Assembly: GCF_032854445.1 (NCBI RefSeq)
Contig: NC_088295.1
Coordinates: 67,003,249-67,067,248 of the forward strand
From: Liolophura sinensis
Taxonomy: Eukaryota; Mollusca; Polyplacophora; Chitonida; Chitonidae
Reading direction: 5' to 3'
Length of the DNA: 64,000 nt
Position 1 is the stretch's first letter; the number at the start of each line of letters is the position of its first letter. A program made the translations under genes and the position numbers. A model generated the notes under the pieces. It did no database searches, was not told the DNA's origin, and was given only the letters and a program-made list of their open reading frames with translations. This document shows, one piece after another, positions 6,201-23,400 of the stretch.

Positions 6201-9200
6201 ACCCTTACATCCCTGAGATTGTGAAATTATATGCACCACTCTACCCTGAAATCCTTTACATCCTACTTGTTGTGAGTGTGTATGCATCGCTGTTCCCTGA
6301 AATCTGTTACACCCCGGCGCTTATGAAGGTATATGCACCACTGACCTCTGAAATCCGTTACACCTTGGCGGTTGTGAGTGTGTATGCATCGTTCTTCCCT
6401 GAAATCTGTTACACCTTGTCGGTTGTGGTTTTATATGCACCACCATTCCGGACATTCTGTTAAACCCTGGTCATTGTAGATGTATATATGCATCAATACC
6501 CACAGCATTCTGACAAACTCCTGCATTTTTGACTATAAATGAACCATTGTTCTCCACTTTCTGCTTAACTCCCGCGCTGTTAAATATCAGTAATTGTGGA
6601 AGTATATGACAATGTACAAGTTACTGTCTACTCTGACACAATCTACATTTTGAAAAAAAAAACACATCCACCCAGGTTCCTTGAACTTTATTGAGATCTA
6701 TATATTAGAGACCAGCATATAGGGTGAAACCAAAGCAGCTTCAACAGTGTGATAACTGACAAATGGTCACACGTAACCGGTGTTATTCGGCCTATCACCA
6801 ATTTACCTCAGGGTTTTATTCTAACAGTTCGAATAAGTGCCTTAATAGTAAACAACTTATATGGCATCTGTCACATTGCCTTCATGAACAAACAAACAGA
6901 CTTGAATGCATATATAACGGTATATGTAACAATGCCAGAGTGGTTCTTACGTCTCTACAGAAGGTTTTTAGGTTATACCAAGGGTGCCTCTTTGTATAGC
7001 AGGCGACCCAAATGCCAATATATTTGAAAGTGCTGCCTCACTGGACCGTCATCTAGAAGACACCAGATATGACGCCTCACTCAGTCACAATATACTGTAT
7101 CATCTGATCGTTTCTCATCTTCCTTTATACTGAGTTTCAGGAGAGGCAGTACCAAGATCGCCTGTTTAAAAGTTTTAGACTTGACCCCCACACGGATTTG
7201 AACCTGGATATCCCCTAAAGAGACGCCATATTAGCAATATCTCAGCTACATCGTGAAGAAAACATGCTAATATGTAGAGTAACTATGAGTTTCGATTTTG
7301 TAATCGACAACAAAGAGCAACTTTCAGTCTCTACAGCTTAAACGCCCGTATATAAGCAAATGTTTTGAATACAGCATTCGTCAATCAGTTTTATATATGC
7401 TGTTAATGAAAATCTTCCCAGAAAACATCTCAAAGTTTTCCAAATGAATACAACGTTTTGGAAATTTAAAATAGCTGTGTTAAATTTGTGTGCAAAGTGA
7501 TGAGTATACTGGGTATCAGGTGTAAAATATACACAGATATTGATGATTACCCAGGCTTATACTGATCTGTTTTATCTGGATGTAGGCGGAGCATATTACC
7601 GCATGGAACCAAATTACCGAGTTGTATATTCGAATAGTTGCAATCAGCAACTGAAATCATACATATTTTGATTATTGCCAACTTATAAACTGGCAATGAG
7701 GCCGATTAAGACAATGAACGTAAACGTCTTAATTCGTAAACGAATCGGTCTTAATTTCTCACTTTATATTCACTTTATTAGTTCTTTTATAGTGTGTATT
7801 GGACATTGTTTTGTAAAGCGATTACTCTCATACATTTATTAGTATCATTCGGAATGAATAATAGAAAGTTGGAAACATTTATGAAAGCACTTCCTCCTGT
7901 ACATTAAGCCATCTAAGAAATTGAACATTTTCAAAATATCATTCATTTGTTCATCCTGACTGCATTTTTTCTCTCTCAAGCATCACAAACACTCATGCAC
8001 AGTAACGTTGACGTCACTAAGCAATGATATAAAATCAACCGTTTACAGTTTATTAACCCCCCACCCCCACCCCCATCCTATGTGTTCTGTGCAAGATGCC
8101 GGCAAAACCGTTTACAGTAATGTGTTTGAAGGCTGTGTCCATTGCCTTGTTCTTATACATTCTCTCCCAGGGAAACAAAAGATAATCATTTTCCACAGCG
8201 TCGTGCAGAATAGCATGTGTTTCTTTTTCGCTCTTGTTAGCTTATCAAGGCGAACAATTTCGCTACGCTTTGAATGCCTTTTATCAAAAGCAAAGCCAGT
8301 CGTTTGTTCGGCAACCCCCGTCAACACCGGCATACTTGCGTTCGTAGCGCCTCCCTGTAACGTGGCGAGTATTTGTTCACATTTGTCTTCTTCAACCGTT
8401 AGCCGAGTTGTTGGGTCTATTACACCGGCTTCTTTGGGAGCCTGCCCGCCCCTCAAACAAACCGTTATGTTTGAAGAATAGATCAAATGTACGACAGAAG
8501 TGGAGTGAGTGGTGAACTGGGGACGATCCCAGACCTGCACGATTAACCCCGGAACTATAGGATCGTCTGGAGAAGAACAACTTCACTGTGATGTATGACG
8601 TGTAGTCTAGCTTAGCACAGTTTCCTAATCACCATGGTAACCGTATTATACATTGTCGCTCTGTAACGTTGTTCTCACTATCGTTACGCGCATCAAAACA
8701 ATCTGCAACCGCTCAGCTGAATAGCCATGAATACTTGTGGATGGTATATTATGAATTTTGCAGATACACATATGACCTTTGGCTATTTTTACAAATGAAC
8801 AACACATGGCTATAACGGGATGTTGAAGTACATAGCCGTAACGTGTAAGGCGTCTAAGCGTCACATATGACATTCGTATACCACGTGTATTCTGCAGAAG
8901 GGGGCGTTCGGAAAAGATTATCATGACATGAAAGACTTGCAGCATATAGAAAACACACATGTAAAACCAGAACAGCGGCGACAGGTGGCAAATGGTCATA
9001 CGTAAATGGTGAAATATGACCTCTTCACCTGTAATTCTGACATAATTACACAAATTCTCATGCGCAAAAATATACGTATAAAATAAGACTGGTAATTTTC
9101 AAAACAGAAGCAGTTAAAAGTTTTCCTGGTTGCGATGAAGAATCAGCAGAACGATTCCAAACAGAAACAAAACCAAGTTGAAGATGTTGAAATCTGGCGC

Positions 9201-14486: not shown

Positions 14487-17400
14487 ACAGTACGGTGTAA
14501 AATTTCAAATATATAAATACTGAGATGGATAAACATATTTAACTTCATTAAACATGCCCATTTGCGTGTACAAACTTTTTATATTCCATTGAAGGAAAGG
14601 GGATACTATCATGGGATCCAGAAGAAAATCCGTATTACTTTTACTCAAACATGGTGTAAGTATGATATCAGTGGGAAGTAGTATCTGCGTGCATATACCT
14701 ATAAACCCGTATATATTCATATGACAGTGTATCAGTATTATGCTAATATGATATACTATTTGATAATTTCACATTCAATGTATGGAATCAAGACATTCAA
14801 AAATGTATGACTTAATATAAAGATTTAAAAGAAGTATGGGGTAATATCATTTTAATGCCAGCACAAAACGGTTACGATGTCATTAGCTTATTTCAAGCCT
14901 TTGTCCATTTTCGTTCCAGCTATATCCCGTATTGTTCCAGTGACTCCTGGACTGGATCAATAAAGAACCCCAAAGGTAAGACACCCTAAGACTCATTCCA
15001 TTGGAGAGAATGGAAATGAAAGCTAATGAATTTACATTAAAATTAAAGTTAATTTAACATTACACATTATATGACATTGCTCCATTTCTTAATTGGGGTG
15101 CAACGTTAAGACATCGTCCAGTTTTAATGAACGGTTCCTTCACTCTTTAATCTGACAACCGTACAGCCAGCGAAATAATCTTGAGTATTGGGTTGAAAGC
15201 CAACCAAATTTTACAAATAAATAAAGTTAATAAAACGTCCTCTCTGATCCGTTGATGGTATGTTGATTGTTCACTCACATTTATGTGTAATGTAGAACAT
15301 TCATATTCTTGCGCTGGAATATAATATGTAAAGATATACATAAGTTTATTGTTTTCCTGATTTCAGATTCGTTTTCCTTTATGGGATCTCTTATCATTGA
15401 GGAGGTCATCAAGGATTTAATTCCTCAGGGTCTAGTCATAGCATCCAAGTTAATATTAGCCGGAAGTAGGTAAGAAACCTGGTTGGCATACTTTCACTTT
15501 CGTTTTCCCCAAAAGATGGACACCTTGGAGTTTAGACCTCCTTGTTGTACATTTTATATATAGACCACATTTTTTCCAATGCACAAGGTAGAAAACTTCA
15601 ATATCTGGGTTTATGTTATTTCGTTGCTTTGGAAATTGACATCGTATTTTCTTACCTAATATATCCCGTTCGCGCTTGACAATTTGTAAGCAACGACTGA
15701 TTGGAGGCAATAAAGATTTACTGCTTTCTTTCCCTACCAAGATGAATCATTATCATCGGATAGCTGAGTAATGGCGGCTGTTGTTGTTGTTTCAGCGCAG
15801 GCGGCACGGGCGTGCTGATGAATCTGGACCGTGTGTCCGACCTTATGGCAAGGTTAGCCCCCTCCGTCAAGGTTCGGGGGCTAGCAGATTCGGGGTGGTT
15901 CCTGGACAATGAGCAGTACGAACCCGTACCCTGTGTGAAGGCACATTCCTGTGCTCCTACTGAGGGAATCAGGCGGGGTATCGAGTAAGTAGAAGTTACA
16001 TTATCCAAGGCTTGTAGCAATCTTGCAGAAAGTATTAAGTTTAGATCACAGTTACTATTCACCTGGCATTTCAGCGCATAGTATGGTATTAGGTATGTCG
16101 TCATTGTAGCTAGAGAAAGTCTTTAGCAATGGAGACTATTTGTGAAAGTTGAAACAACTCTGCTTCCATGTAGATGTCTGTACTCACTTAACTGTGGTAC
16201 GTGATCTTGTTATTATAATTCAGCCCAGTTTTATAAGCCGTATGCATATACCGTTTTGTGTTCAAGTAGCTACAAAGACGGTGATGTGGATATTGCGTTG
16301 CACAGATGATGTCGTTGATATTACATTGTAAAAGTGGTGATGTAGGTGCAAATGTGGTATTGCAGGTGCGAAGATGGTGATGTAGATATTATGTAACAAA
16401 GATGGTGATGTAGGCATTACGTTGCAAACATGGTAATGTAGGTATTGCGTTGCAAACATGGTATTGTAGGTATTACGTTGCAAACATGGTATTGTAGGTA
16501 TTACGTTGCAAACATGGTATTGTAGGTATTACGTTGCAAACATGGTATTGTAGGTATTACGTTGCAAAGATGGTAATGTAGGAATGACGTTGCAGACAAG
16601 GCAGTGTAGTTATTACGTTGCACGCATGGTGTTATAAGTATTACTTTGCAAGAATGGTTCTGTGGGTATTAAGCTGCAAAGACAGTGTTGTAGGTTTTAC
16701 GCTGCAAAGATAGTGTTGTAGGTTTTGCGTTGCAAAGATGGTATTGTGGGTATTACGTTGAAAGATGGTGTCCGGCCGCCCGGGGGAAGGCCTTGCAGCA
16801 ACATGCGGATGGTCGTGGATTCCCCCGCGCTGTGCCCGGTTTCCTCCCACCATAATGCTGGCCACCGTCGTATAAGTGAAATATTCTTGAGTACGGCGTA
16901 AATCACCAATGAAGTAAATAAATAAAATAAATAAATATATGAAAGATGGTGTTGCACGTATTACCTTACAAAGATGGTGTTGTAGGTGTTACGTTACAAA
17001 GATAGGGTTGTGTGTAATTACGTTGTAAACATGGGGCGGTAGTTATTACGTTGCAAACATGTTGTTGTGAGTATTACGTTTGGTGTCGTATATATTACGT
17101 TGCAAAGGTTGTTGTACGTAGTACGTGACAGTGTTGTAGGTATTGCGTTAATAGCCAAGGTCATCACCTGCACATACCTTGTATAGCCAGTACGTATACA
17201 GTGGTCTCCAAAAGCCGAGAATTTGTACAGATTGTTAGATACATTATGTTCTTTTAATCTCTCACATATATGGTAGGTTTTAGCAATACAGGTAGAAGGA
17301 CATTCTCCGCGAGTTATTTTGTGTGCACAATTGCTCCTTATTGACTCATCCCCTTTATCCTTATACGGGGAAATGACGCTATATTACTGCGTAGATTGGA

Positions 17401-20400
17401 ATTAAATAAAGCAATATAACATACTCATATCATGCTGCATGGATCATCCAAGATCCCATCCTATATGCACGTCACCCTTTCTCGTGCACAGCCTGTGGCA
17501 GGGACAAGTGCCTGAAGATTGCAGACGCCAGTATAGGGACGAGCCCTGGCGATGTTACTTCGGGTATCGAATGTACCCGACGTTGAGAAGTAAGTATAGA
17601 TGTCCAGATAACGCAGTAAAAATTACAACGGGATGTTTATGTCCTATAGCTGTTTTTAGTCATGTTTACTTACGCAAAAGAATAAAGAGACAAGAATTCG
17701 AGCAAACTGTTCTCACAGGATGGGATTATGCATTTTTTGATGGAGTCAGATTTTTGTATAGCCTCTGATTTAGACCAGATCCAAGAAACGGCCGTTTCAA
17801 GATTGCGAATGCTCGTTTTCAGCAGAGGATGAACATGAAGACTGATTAATATTAGAAGTCAACATAAATCAGTATTGATTTAAAGTAGAATATTTTTTGA
17901 ATGCTTAACATATTTGGTGCGCGAGTTTCATTCGGGCATTCGAGTGTCTCGGTTCGTTCTTCTTCACTTCAGGCTCACTCACAGTATGAACATAACCGCT
18001 AACATTATTCCTTCTGATAATTGCTACAGCTCCAGTTTACATTGTCCAATACCTATTCGATGAAGCCCAGATTACTGCCAACAATGTTGGACCTCCTGTG
18101 AAGAAAGAACAGTGGCGCTTCATCCATGAAGTAGGCAATGAAATGAAGAAAACTTTGCAAAATGTCTCGTGAGTATTAAAAGTATTCAGTATATAATGCG
18201 CTTAGCGAATTGCCCAAAAAATTGCCAGCGTTGAACACTTACGTACACTGTTTCAGTTCGTTTTGTTCACATTTAAGCCCTAAAATCAAATTTCAAATTT
18301 GACCGGAGTCAAGGTGAGCTTTGTGTATTCTACACCTTAAACCTGCTAACGTAAGACTGATTAGAACACGGACCCCCTTGGTCAAAGGCCGGCTCGTCTC
18401 TCGTACTTTGATGAACTTCCGCTCATTTGAATTGCTCAAAACTATAAGAGTATATCTGTCCATACCTATCCAGTCCATTACTGGGGCTAATACATGAACA
18501 TAGGTTGGACTGAGTCTTAACCTTATATATGCATGGAGTTTTTTTGCGCTGTGATTTCTTTGTTTCTTTTTCACAGAGCAGTGTTTGCACCAGCCTGTCT
18601 CTCCCATATACTGTTAACGAAAAGGTAAGCTATAAAAATCTGTTTCTGTTCATCGATTGCTATTGAATTCTTTTGCTTTATACGACGCGTGATGTTAATC
18701 TTTTTACTGGAATGTTTTTAATTGGAGAATTATCACTTCCCAAAGCAGTTTTGAAAGGTTCCAAAACAACAGCAAGAAAAATACATAAGAAGAAGCGATT
18801 GTGCTGCTACCATTTATCTCTAACTGAGCTTTAGTTATGGCATTCGATGTTGATCGGTTTGTAATAATCATATATATTAAGGTATTCCAACTTCTCTACT
18901 AAATATTTGGCTTCGTGCTAAAAGTAATGAAATCAATATTGGAGGAACGACTCACACATTTGGCTCTCGGTGGTCATATGTATGGATCATTATTAAGGTA
19001 AAAACTGCTGCCCTATTGAATGAGCGGCAAATCTAAGTGAGGTGTAACCATCCTTTGGTATCCTCCTATTGAGTGATTGGCAGACCTAATTGAGGTGTAA
19101 CCATATTTTCATATCCTCCTATTGAGTGAGTAGCAAACTTAAGTGAGGTGTAACCATCTTTTGATATCCTATTGAGTTAGCGGCAAACTTAAGTGAGGTG
19201 TAACCATATTTTGATATCCTCCTATTGAGTTAGTGGCAAACTTAAGTGAGGTGTAACCATATTTTGATATCCTCCTAATGAGTGAGTGGCAAACTTTGGT
19301 GAGGTGTAGCCATATTTTGATATCTTCCTATTGAGTTAGCGGCAAACTTAAGTGAGGTGTAACCATCTTTTGATATCCTCCTATTGAGTTAGTGGCAAAC
19401 TTAAGTGAGGTGTAACCATATTTTGATATTCTCCTAATGAGTGAGTGGCAAACTTAAGTGAGCTGTAACCATCTTTTGATGTCCTCCTATTGAGTGAGTG
19501 GCAAACTTTCGTGAGACGTAACCATCTTTTGATATCCTCATATTGAGTGAGTGGCAAACTTAAGTGAGGTGTAACTATCTTTTGATATCCTCCTATTGAG
19601 TGAGTGGCAAACTTAAGTGAGGTGTAACCATATTTTGATTCACTACTATTGAGTGAGTGGCAAACTTAAGTGAGGTGTAGCCATATTTTGATATCCTCCT
19701 ATTGAGTTAGTGGCAAACTTAAGTGAGGTGTAACCATATTTTGATATCCTCCTATTGAGTGAGTGGCAGACTAAAGTGAGGCGTAACCATCTTTTGATAT
19801 CCTGCGGTTGAGTGAGTGGCAAAGTTAAGTGACACCAGTGTAAGGTGTCTCCTCCTGCAGACATCTAAGTGAGATGTAACCATGCATTTTGTGGTTTCCT
19901 AATGAATGAGTGATGCAACTAAATGAGGCGTAATAATATATTGGTGTTTTCTTGTTCAGTGAGTGGCAGTCGGCCAAACTACTCAGTGGTTTTGACGATT
20001 TTCTGTAAAGTGAGTTACACAACTAAGTGAATTGCAACCATATATTTAGGTTCTCTTGTTCAGTGAGATGCAATGATATTTTGATGACCTTCTATAGAGT
20101 GAGTGGTATAATTAATTGGGATGTAACTATATATAGATATTTTCCTGTTTAGTGAGTGGCAGAAGACTGCCGTGAATGGCGTCACTTTGGCGCAGTCAAT
20201 CTACTGCTGGGAGCGCGGCTCGGACGAGGAACTCCAGTGTCCGCTCGTCCGTCAACGTCTAAAGAAAATTTCTAAAGCTGTAAGGAAATCATCCGGGTGA
20301 GTGTCCATGTCAGCTTTATCTCATTCTAGCAGTAAATGAACTGAGCAGTAAATCAGATAAACAGTGTGCCAGTTTAGCAGTATTTAAATTGAGCCGTATA

Positions 20401-23400
20401 TCAACGAGCAGTATACCTGTTTAGTAGTAGTGCGTGAATCGAACAGTATATCACCAAAGCAATATTCCACCTTAGCAATACCCGTATGTGAATATATCAC
20501 CCGAGCAGTATTCATGTTCTTGCAGTATGTGAGTGGACTAGTATATCAGCTGAGCAGTGTGTCAGTTTATGTGAATGGACTAGTATGTCAGCTGAGCAGT
20601 GTGTCAGTTTATGTGAATGGACTAGTATGTCAGCTGAGCAGTGTGTCAGTTTATGTGAATGGACTAGTATATCAGCTGAGCAGTGTGTCAGTTTATGTGA
20701 ATGGACTAGTATGTCAGCTGAGCAGTGTGTCAGTTTATGTGAGTGGACTAGTATATCAGCTGAGCAGTGTGTCAGTTCATGTGAATGGACTAGTATGTCA
20801 GCTGAGCAGTGTGTCAGTTTATGTGAATGGACTAGTATGTCAGCTGAGCAGTGTGTCAGTTTATGTGAATGGACTAGTATGTCAGCTGAGTAGTGTGTCA
20901 GTTTATGTGTGAATGGACTAGTATGTCAGCTGAGCAGTGTGTCTGTTTATGTGAATGGACTAGTATGTCAGCTGAGTAGTGTGTCAGTTTATGTGAATGG
21001 ACTAGTATGTCAGCTGAGCAGTGTGTCAGTTTATGTGAATGGACTAGTATGTCAGCTGAGCAGTGTGTCAGTTTATGTGAATGGACTAGTATGTCAGCTG
21101 AGTAGTATGTCAGTTTATGTGTGAATGGACTAGTATGTCAGCTGAGCAGTGTGTCAGTTTATGTGAATGGACCAGTATGTCAGCTGAGCAGTGTGTCAGT
21201 TTATGTGAATGGACTAGTATGTCAGCTGAGCAGTGTGTCAGTTTATGTGAATTGACCAGTATATCAGCTGAGTAGTAGGCCCCTATGTCACTTTAGTAAT
21301 GTGAGAATTGACCAGTATATCATCCAAACAGTATTCCGGTTTATCATGATTGGACGTGTGACTGGATTAGCGTGTATCAGCTGAGCAGCATGTCAGTTTA
21401 GCAGTTCGTGAATTGAGCAGTATATCACCTGAGCAGTATGTCAGTTTAGCAGTACGTCAATTGAGCAGTTTATCAGCTGAATAGTATGTCAGTTTAGCAG
21501 TACGTGAATTGAACAATATATCAGCTGAGCAGTATGTCAGTTTAGCAGTACGTGAATTGAACAATATATCAGCTGAGCAGTATGTCAGTTTAGCAGTACG
21601 TGAATTGAGCAGTTTATCAGCTGAATAGTATGTCAGTTTAGCAGTACGTGAATTGAACAATATATCAGCTGAGCAGTATGTCAGTTTAGCAGTACGTGAA
21701 TTGAACAATATATCACCTGAGCAGTATGTCAGTTTAGCAGTACGTGAATTGAGCAGCTTATCAGCTGAATAGTATGTCAGTTTAGCAGTACGTGAATTGA
21801 GCAGTTTATCAGCTGAGCAGTATGTCAGTTTAGCAGTACGTGAATTGAGCAGCTTATCAGCTGAATAGTATGTCAGTTTAGCTGTACGTGAATTGAGCAG
21901 TTTACCAGCTGAGCAGTATGTCAGTTTAGCAGTACGTGAATTGAGCAGTTTATCACCTGAGCAGTATGTCAGTTTAGCTGTACATGAATTGAGCAGTTTA
22001 TCACCTGAGCAGTATGTCAGTTTAGCAGTACGTGAATTGAGCAGTTTATCAGCTGAGCAGTATGTCAGTTTAGCAGTACGTGAATTGAGCAGCTTATCAG
22101 CTGAATAGTATGTCAGTTTAGCTGTACGTGAATTGAGCAGTTTATCAGCTGAGCAGTATGTCAGTTTAGCAGTACGTGAATTGAGCAGTTTATCACCTGA
22201 GCAGTATGTCAGTTTAGCAGTACATGAATTGAGCAGTTTATCACCTGAGCAGTATGTCAGTTTAGCTGTACGTGAATTGAGCAGTTTATCAGCTGAGCAG
22301 TATGTCAGTTTAGCTGTACGTGAATTGAGCAGTTTATCAGCTGAGCAGTATGCCAGTTTAGCAGTATGTGAATGGGTCATTATATCACCTGAGCAATATG
22401 TCAGTTTAGCAGTACGTGAATTGAGCAGTATATCACCTAAGAAGTATATCAGTTTGGCAATACGTCAATTGAGCAGTATATCAGCTGAGCAGTATGTCAG
22501 TTTAGCAATACGTCAGTTGAGCAGTATATCACCTGAGCAGTATGTCAGTCTAGCAGTACGTGAATTGAGCAGTGTATGAGCTGAGCAGTATGTCAGTTTA
22601 GCAGTACGTGAATTGAGCAGTATATAAGCTGAGCAGTGTGTCAGTTTAGCAGTATTTGAATGGATCATTATATCAGCTGAGCAGTATGTCAGTTTGGCAA
22701 TACGTGAATTGAGCAGTATATGAGCTGAGCAGTGTGTCAGTTTAGCTGTACGTGAATTGAACAGTATATCAGCTGAGCAGTATGTCTGTTTAGCAGTATT
22801 TGAATTGACCAGTAGACCGATCACCTTATCAGTATGCTAGATTATCAGTATGTGAATAGACCAGGATATCAGCTGAGCCTTATGTCAGTTAAGCAGAGTA
22901 TAAATTGAGCAGTATATCAGCTAAGCCGCATGTCAGTTTAGCTGTATTTCAGTACTTAACTGTATGTGAGGTTTACATTGTGTCAGCTGTTTGTTGGCTG
23001 AGAGGTATATCAGCTCAGGGGTATTTCAGCTTTGTGGTATGTCAACTTTCCATTTAAATCAACTAAGTCGTATGTCAGATTAGCAGTAGCAGAACAATAT
23101 ATCATTTTAGCACCAAAATTGTATATGCAGTTTCCACCTTTAATCTTTATAATCTCAACAGTTAAGTGTGGCTGACTTCAGTTTAGTGTGGCACAAGAAG
23201 CGTCATAAGAACCCATATACTTTTATCATAAGATAATATTTACAGACCCGCGCTGCTTCCTAATTTCCCCCAAAAGTTCTGCGAAAAATGCATTTGCTTC
23301 TTCTTCTCACATATAAGGAATGTGGCAGGAAAAGTGGAAATGCCCCTGGGAGATGATCCAGTGGGAACAAAGGCAGCTAAACGTCTGAAGAATAAAAAAC

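Follow-up and report, generated by a model that had tools for sequence, protein, structure and literature searches.

The Notum gene of the chiton Liolophura sinensis has an intron filled largely by a 53-bp minisatellite that runs up to the following coding exon. Does the array take in the working splice acceptor and, if so, which of the two gave rise to the other, and how might the copies bear on splicing? We addressed these questions in a 64-kb stretch of genomic DNA, referred to throughout as the window, on which an earlier note had already proposed that the acceptor is itself a member of the array. The features are collected in Table 1.

The Notum exon start at the end of the array

PF03283 has a single match in the whole genome, and it lies inside the window. 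The peptide joined from the Notum exons matched human NOTUM (PDB) with an E value of 1.5e-65; the Drosophila NOTUM chain is probably among the joined-peptide matches, of which only the human alignment was inspected. The possibility of another Notum gene was rejected, since the genome-wide joined-peptide search matched the exons of this gene only. Across the junction that follows the array, the peptide aligns gap-free to human NOTUM in an open frame, with S-x-W common to both (..LSHEIIIRSHW.. in human NOTUM, ..LSHILLTKSEW.. here), which places the exon start at 20153 and bears out the reading S-E-W-Q given in the earlier note. By itself the exon (20153-20296, 144 bases) had no PDB match at E 1 and no Pfam match at E 0.1, and with human NOTUM as the query it did not appear as a separate match at E 1; since it is too weak when taken singly, the homology case rests on the joined-peptide alignment. 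Ten exon matches to the human query precede it, making it about the eleventh coding exon, and the number 10 previously assigned to it was left unconfirmed.

One Notum border, near 23246, is uncertain. The intron that follows the exon consists almost entirely of related 42- and 48-bp arrays. That the exon's donor at 20297 might belong to them was considered and dropped, as the likeness across 20270-20330 was not significant (130 and 154 of 1000 shuffles reached the scores). Elsewhere in the window, a SINE-like stretch at 16760-16940 interrupts a 28-bp array; we take it to resemble a molluscan SINE type.

Table 1. Features of the Notum locus, in positions of the window.
Feature	Position	Strand	Details
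Notum coding exon 5' of the array	18577..18624	+	Ends ..ACG AAA AG, donor GTAAGC; human NOTUM homology, GT-AG borders
Notum intron	18625..20152	+	1528 bases
Initial part copy, then the 15 core copies (c01-c15) of the 53-bp unit	19012..19821	+	GAG at the acceptor position in 15/15
Five worn copies (c16-c20)	19822..20108	+	With indels
Last copy (c21), the acceptor copy	20109..20161	+	Real acceptor and first 9 exon bases, TGAGTGGCA
Notum coding exon	20153..20296	+	S-E-W-Q-K-T-A-V-N-G..., donor GTGAGT at 20297
Next Notum intron	20312..23112	+	42- and 48-bp arrays, edges worn

The array is homologous to the splice acceptor

In the 64-kb window, TRF delimited the 53-bp array to 19012-19832 (15.5 copies); by repeat finding and wrap-around alignment it could be traced on, more worn, as far as 20161. 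We numbered the copies c01 to c21, with their ends placed by hand on the alignment. Twenty of them precede the acceptor copy, matching the figure of about 20 in the earlier note, and a leading part copy (19012-19029) is extra. Altogether the array makes up 1141 of the 1528 intron bases (75%). Mean identity among the 15 core copies is 89%; the acceptor copy shares 68-77% identity with any one of them.

Several comparisons place the acceptor within the array. Against a profile built from the 14 full-length core copies, with the acceptor copy excluded, the acceptor copy scored 41.1 bits; the highest score among 126,706 background placements, which covered the plus strand outside 18960-20165 and the entire minus strand of the window, was -5.3 bits. 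Aligned to the consensus it scored 60, and the highest score reached by 5000 dinucleotide shuffles was 33; the unit-to-acceptor alignment in the earlier note was a fair one. Its 44 intronic bases alone still scored 42, with a shuffle maximum of 37 (0/5000). One could imagine that a pyrimidine-rich acceptor region and an AT-rich repeat resemble each other by chance, because T-rich stretches followed by AG occur in both. Chance resemblance is refuted by the shuffles, including those of the intronic part alone, by 35 other acceptors that failed to match the Notum intron (best score 10, compared with 22 for its own) and by the 53-bp register, which the copies hold up to the exon apart from a few indels; we give chance practically no credence. 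The array is homologous to the acceptor, as had been claimed.

The unit matches the first nine bases of the exon exactly, and the exon bases in the array number 9, or 10 where copies have G next. Beyond the first 10, homology between exon and unit falls to the shuffle level (reached by 468/1000 shuffles); none was detected at 20163-20224 (300/1000) or, 5' of the array, at 18950-19011 (888/1000). Since homology ends sharply at 20161, the array takes in nine exon bases. A search of the 609-Mb genome for the 53-bp unit, which may miss matches because very common words are skipped, returned one candidate locus, whose 7 matches all lie in the Notum array. The unit was therefore rejected as a dispersed element, the Notum array being the sole locus found within the reach of that search.

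Splice signals within the copies

G at position -3 is the base that acceptors use least. All but one of the 21 copies (c16) have an AG at the acceptor place, and the base before it is G in every core copy (15/15 read GAG) and in 16/21 copies overall. The real acceptor is a TAG (20150-20152), and CAG or TAG is otherwise offered only by worn copies near the exon. Copies c17 and c19 read CAG|TGAG at the acceptor place, in c20 a TAG precedes the GAG by two bases, and c16, where the AG is missing, carries an inserted extra stretch of 40 bases with a CAG at 19858-19860. In c17 the first 10 bases of the exon are repeated exactly behind TTTTCTTGTTCAG. A branch-point-like GTAAC is kept in 13/15 core copies, in c16 and in the acceptor copy; it is absent from c06, c13 and c17-c20. 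A recursive splice site was rejected: the junction reads AG|TGAGT, and the donor-like GTGAGT begins a single base ahead of the acceptor cut.

We ranked the 101 AGs of the intron by a rough score, using acceptor and donor weights taken from general knowledge. The real acceptor came 5th. All four AGs that outrank it (19861, 19960, 20064 and 20098) belong to the worn part; splicing to any one would bring a stop after 15-57 bases of joined frame. The earlier note had seen possible splicing decoys in the upstream copies. For the worn part this holds to the extent that its four AGs outscore the real site; the core does not fit it, as its copies carry a GAG that would make a poor acceptor, and likely decoys are accordingly expected to be few and not to multiply with the core.

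These signals bear on whether the array could be regulatory, with worn copies acting as acceptor decoys and copy number tuning the output of full-length Notum through premature stops. The four high-scoring AGs with their early stops, and the exact exon start within c17, are what such a role would call for. However, their scores depend on rough general weights, and with G at -3 in all 15 core copies a change in core copy number should barely alter the number of good decoys. Excerpts of work on the comparable lancelet arrays known as mirages also report that regular splicing is undisturbed by them (PMC3087553, PMC3902484). We consider a regulatory array unlikely, and the earlier note's idea that copy number could affect inclusion of the exon is so far unsupported.

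Origin and history of the array

Our preferred reading, which we hold with high confidence, is that the array derives from the intron-exon border, that its core has been homogenised and the copy at the exon edge kept under selection, that splicing is probably normal and that the process is not specific to Notum. On this account, 53 bp of the 3' border of the intron, with the branch-point-like GTAAC, the pyrimidine tract, the AG and nine exon bases, would have been duplicated in tandem. The copies would then have multiplied and become homogenised in the middle of the array, presumably by slippage or unequal exchange, with selection keeping the copy at the exon edge functional as its neighbours decayed. 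The founder of the amplified core would have had G at -3, making the core copies weak decoys. By exon definition the spliceosome would most likely pick the innermost acceptor, which adjoins the short 144-base exon; splicing of the intron is thus probably normal.

The core copies are clearly more alike than those on the exon side, which is the pattern expected of homogenisation in mid-array with the edge left alone. In a copy tree, which is weak because it rests on about 53 bases, the acceptor copy groups with the worn copies c17-c19 (support 0.93), and the worn copies c16 and c20 fall away from it.

An origin at the intron-exon border had been proposed in the form of a single amplified 53-bp segment, and one part of that proposal has fared better than the other. 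Because the S and W codons at the exon start are common to human NOTUM, they are probably older than the array, and amplification would have run from the border into the intron; this direction and a local origin are supported by the sequence. One clean duplication of 53 bp is not enough. At its 5' end the array begins in phase CCTATTG, and its 3' end falls 18 bases farther along the repeat; trimming afterwards, or a short direct repeat that was already there, is needed in addition.

The opposite course, in which a spreading intronic repeat replaced an old splice site and exon start so that the array supplied the acceptor, would account for the exact match of nine exon bases to the unit. The exon start retains S-x-W and the exact length relative to human NOTUM, the alignment from which this is judged; that is not what replacement would be expected to leave, and we regard capture of the acceptor from the array as very improbable.

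Arrays at other exon edges in the genome

We surveyed 21 further pieces of the L. sinensis genome (L003-L023; 206,621 bases) around matches to PF00063 (myosin head) or PF00118 (chaperonin). The sample was picked for exon density, not at random, and takes in 97 of 131 listed exon matches. Its 44 merged arrays (period at least 15; 2.5 copies or more) account for 15.6% of the sequence. The published repeat table, by comparison, gives 0.08% for 'Other (simple repeat, microsatellite, RNA)' and 14.04% for unclassified repeats.

Exon matches were overlapped by 8/44 arrays, one of them (in L006) probably through an over-run match. There was no excess of arrays at exons when at most 120 coding bases were covered (7 observed and 5.85 +/- 2.23 expected, a number reached in 187/500 random placements), nor under five other placement settings, the nearest of which gave 3 against 1.44 expected (reached by 90/500). 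A preference of arrays for exon edges was dropped, as overlaps with exons were no more frequent than under random placement. Borders were fitted for 31 introns of the sample, with scores that use general weights; arrays contained 3/31 donors and 0/31 acceptors, and in Notum 0/5 donors and 1/5 acceptors. We conclude that arrays are frequent and that some lie across exon edges; this small sample gave no sign that they favour splice sites.

A separate test looked for copies of coding edges in their own flanks. It requires about 30 coding bases, so that a case like Notum would escape it. Of 193 edges, 10 exceeded the threshold; in the pooled null 131/35,200 values did so, and single weak hits therefore mean little. 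Four edges were dropped: two in L012, where a myosin exon pair looks like alternative exons with one copy each, and both sides of the L006 match at 919-1332. On its 3' side the profile match seems, by eye, to extend into a neighbouring intronic array, and on its 5' side the array reaches the acceptor and hardly enters the exon. This left 6/193 edges, at 5/21 loci, with tandem copies of the exon edge together with its splice signal. The six clear cases (one each in L003, L015, L019 and L020, two in L006) all beat the best foreign block in their own flank and were checked in the sequence or copy lists.

In L003 (reverse complement), the end of a chaperonin exon with its GTGAGT donor at 6564 stands seven times including the real one, the other six downstream at a spacing of 88-111 bp; a stricter ungapped count gives two extra copies. 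The copies are near-identical over 40 exon bases, and some read GTGAAT. The start of a myosin-head exon (NPLLEAFGNAKT) occurs in L020 at 1814, 1909 and 2004 with an intact TTTTCAG, the two copies upstream of the real one carrying some 50 exon bases. At a chaperonin donor in L006, the real GTGTGT is kept in 10/11 copies. A myosin intron in L015 (reverse complement; donor 3185) has 17 donor copies spaced about 31 bp apart, and +3 is C or T in 16/17 of them, where the real donor has G. Mostly, then, copies at the sampled exon edges retain the GT or AG. Exon-edge arrays are not specific to Notum, and they are not rare in the sampled part of the genome.

Two further observations were made along the way. 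In L006 (reverse complement), a 41-bp array at 380-935 extends as far as a chaperonin exon whose acceptor, resembling TTTATGTACAG, recurs in it, by eye with few or no exon bases. Contig C99 has at least 7 COX1 matches, all on a single strand and at intervals of about 15.5 kb, and is probably a concatenated mitochondrial assembly. Mitochondrial genes stand in the order taken as ancestral for molluscs; COX1 and the large rRNA were identified by search, and the remaining genes were assigned by eye from their reading frames.

Relation to known systems and wider meaning

Similar structures are known from lancelets under the name 'mirage', which is reportedly owed to Canestro 2002. In the excerpted text of two papers, mirages are minisatellite-like duplications of exon-intron borders with units of 10-160 bp, in which many copies contain AG or GT signals, the edges stay outside homogenisation and length differs between haplotypes (PMC3087553, PMC3902484). 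RT-PCR and Adh3 data are said there to suggest regular splicing (PMC3087553). Amphioxus examples given in such excerpts are Adh3, the globins BflGb6 and BflGb9 and troponin C, with PGBD5 repeats likened to them. The Notum array shows the four sequence features that we tested for mirages, namely a unit spanning the border, a real junction, AG-bearing copies and a homogenised core. As far as the amphioxus cases are described in these sources, they share with it tandem repeats over an exon-intron border, AG in many copies and edge copies left un-homogenised; it differs from them in its mollusc host, its 21 copies of 53 bp, the inclusion of only 9 exon bases and the poor -3 base of its core. It is an instance of a structure already described in lancelets, now in a second phylum. 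Among the open-access matches listed, a scope that most subscription papers fall outside, there was no report of such structures in molluscs. An intron of an abalone TSSK1-like gene contains a 27-bp array (PMC6905558), likewise an intronic tandem array in a mollusc gene; unlike in Notum, the excerpt of that paper does not speak of the array reaching a splice site.

Intron gain by tandem genomic duplication has also been proposed (PMC4974935; Rogers model, cited in PMC3087553). As excerpted, that model concerns new introns, and its likeness to the Notum array is confined to a duplication that takes in splice signals.

A broader picture can be sketched, tentatively and with real doubt that it will hold. 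Across chitons, several per cent of exon edges might carry copies of their own splice signals in a process that continues; the innermost signal would be the one used, and long arrays would persist only where the founder copy was disarmed. The G at -3 in 15/15 Notum core copies and the C or T at +3 in 16/17 donor copies of the L015 myosin intron fit a disarmed founder. The chaperonin donor in L006, with its real signal intact in 10/11 copies, runs counter to that last part.

Several such cases in a mollusc would show that the mirage process is not confined to lancelets. Intact and damaged copies of a splice site, standing side by side, make a natural set for asking how the spliceosome chooses among near-identical sites. 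Mirages have been proposed, in the excerpts available, as a source of new introns in lancelets, and the mollusc arrays would let one ask whether new introns arise from such arrays.
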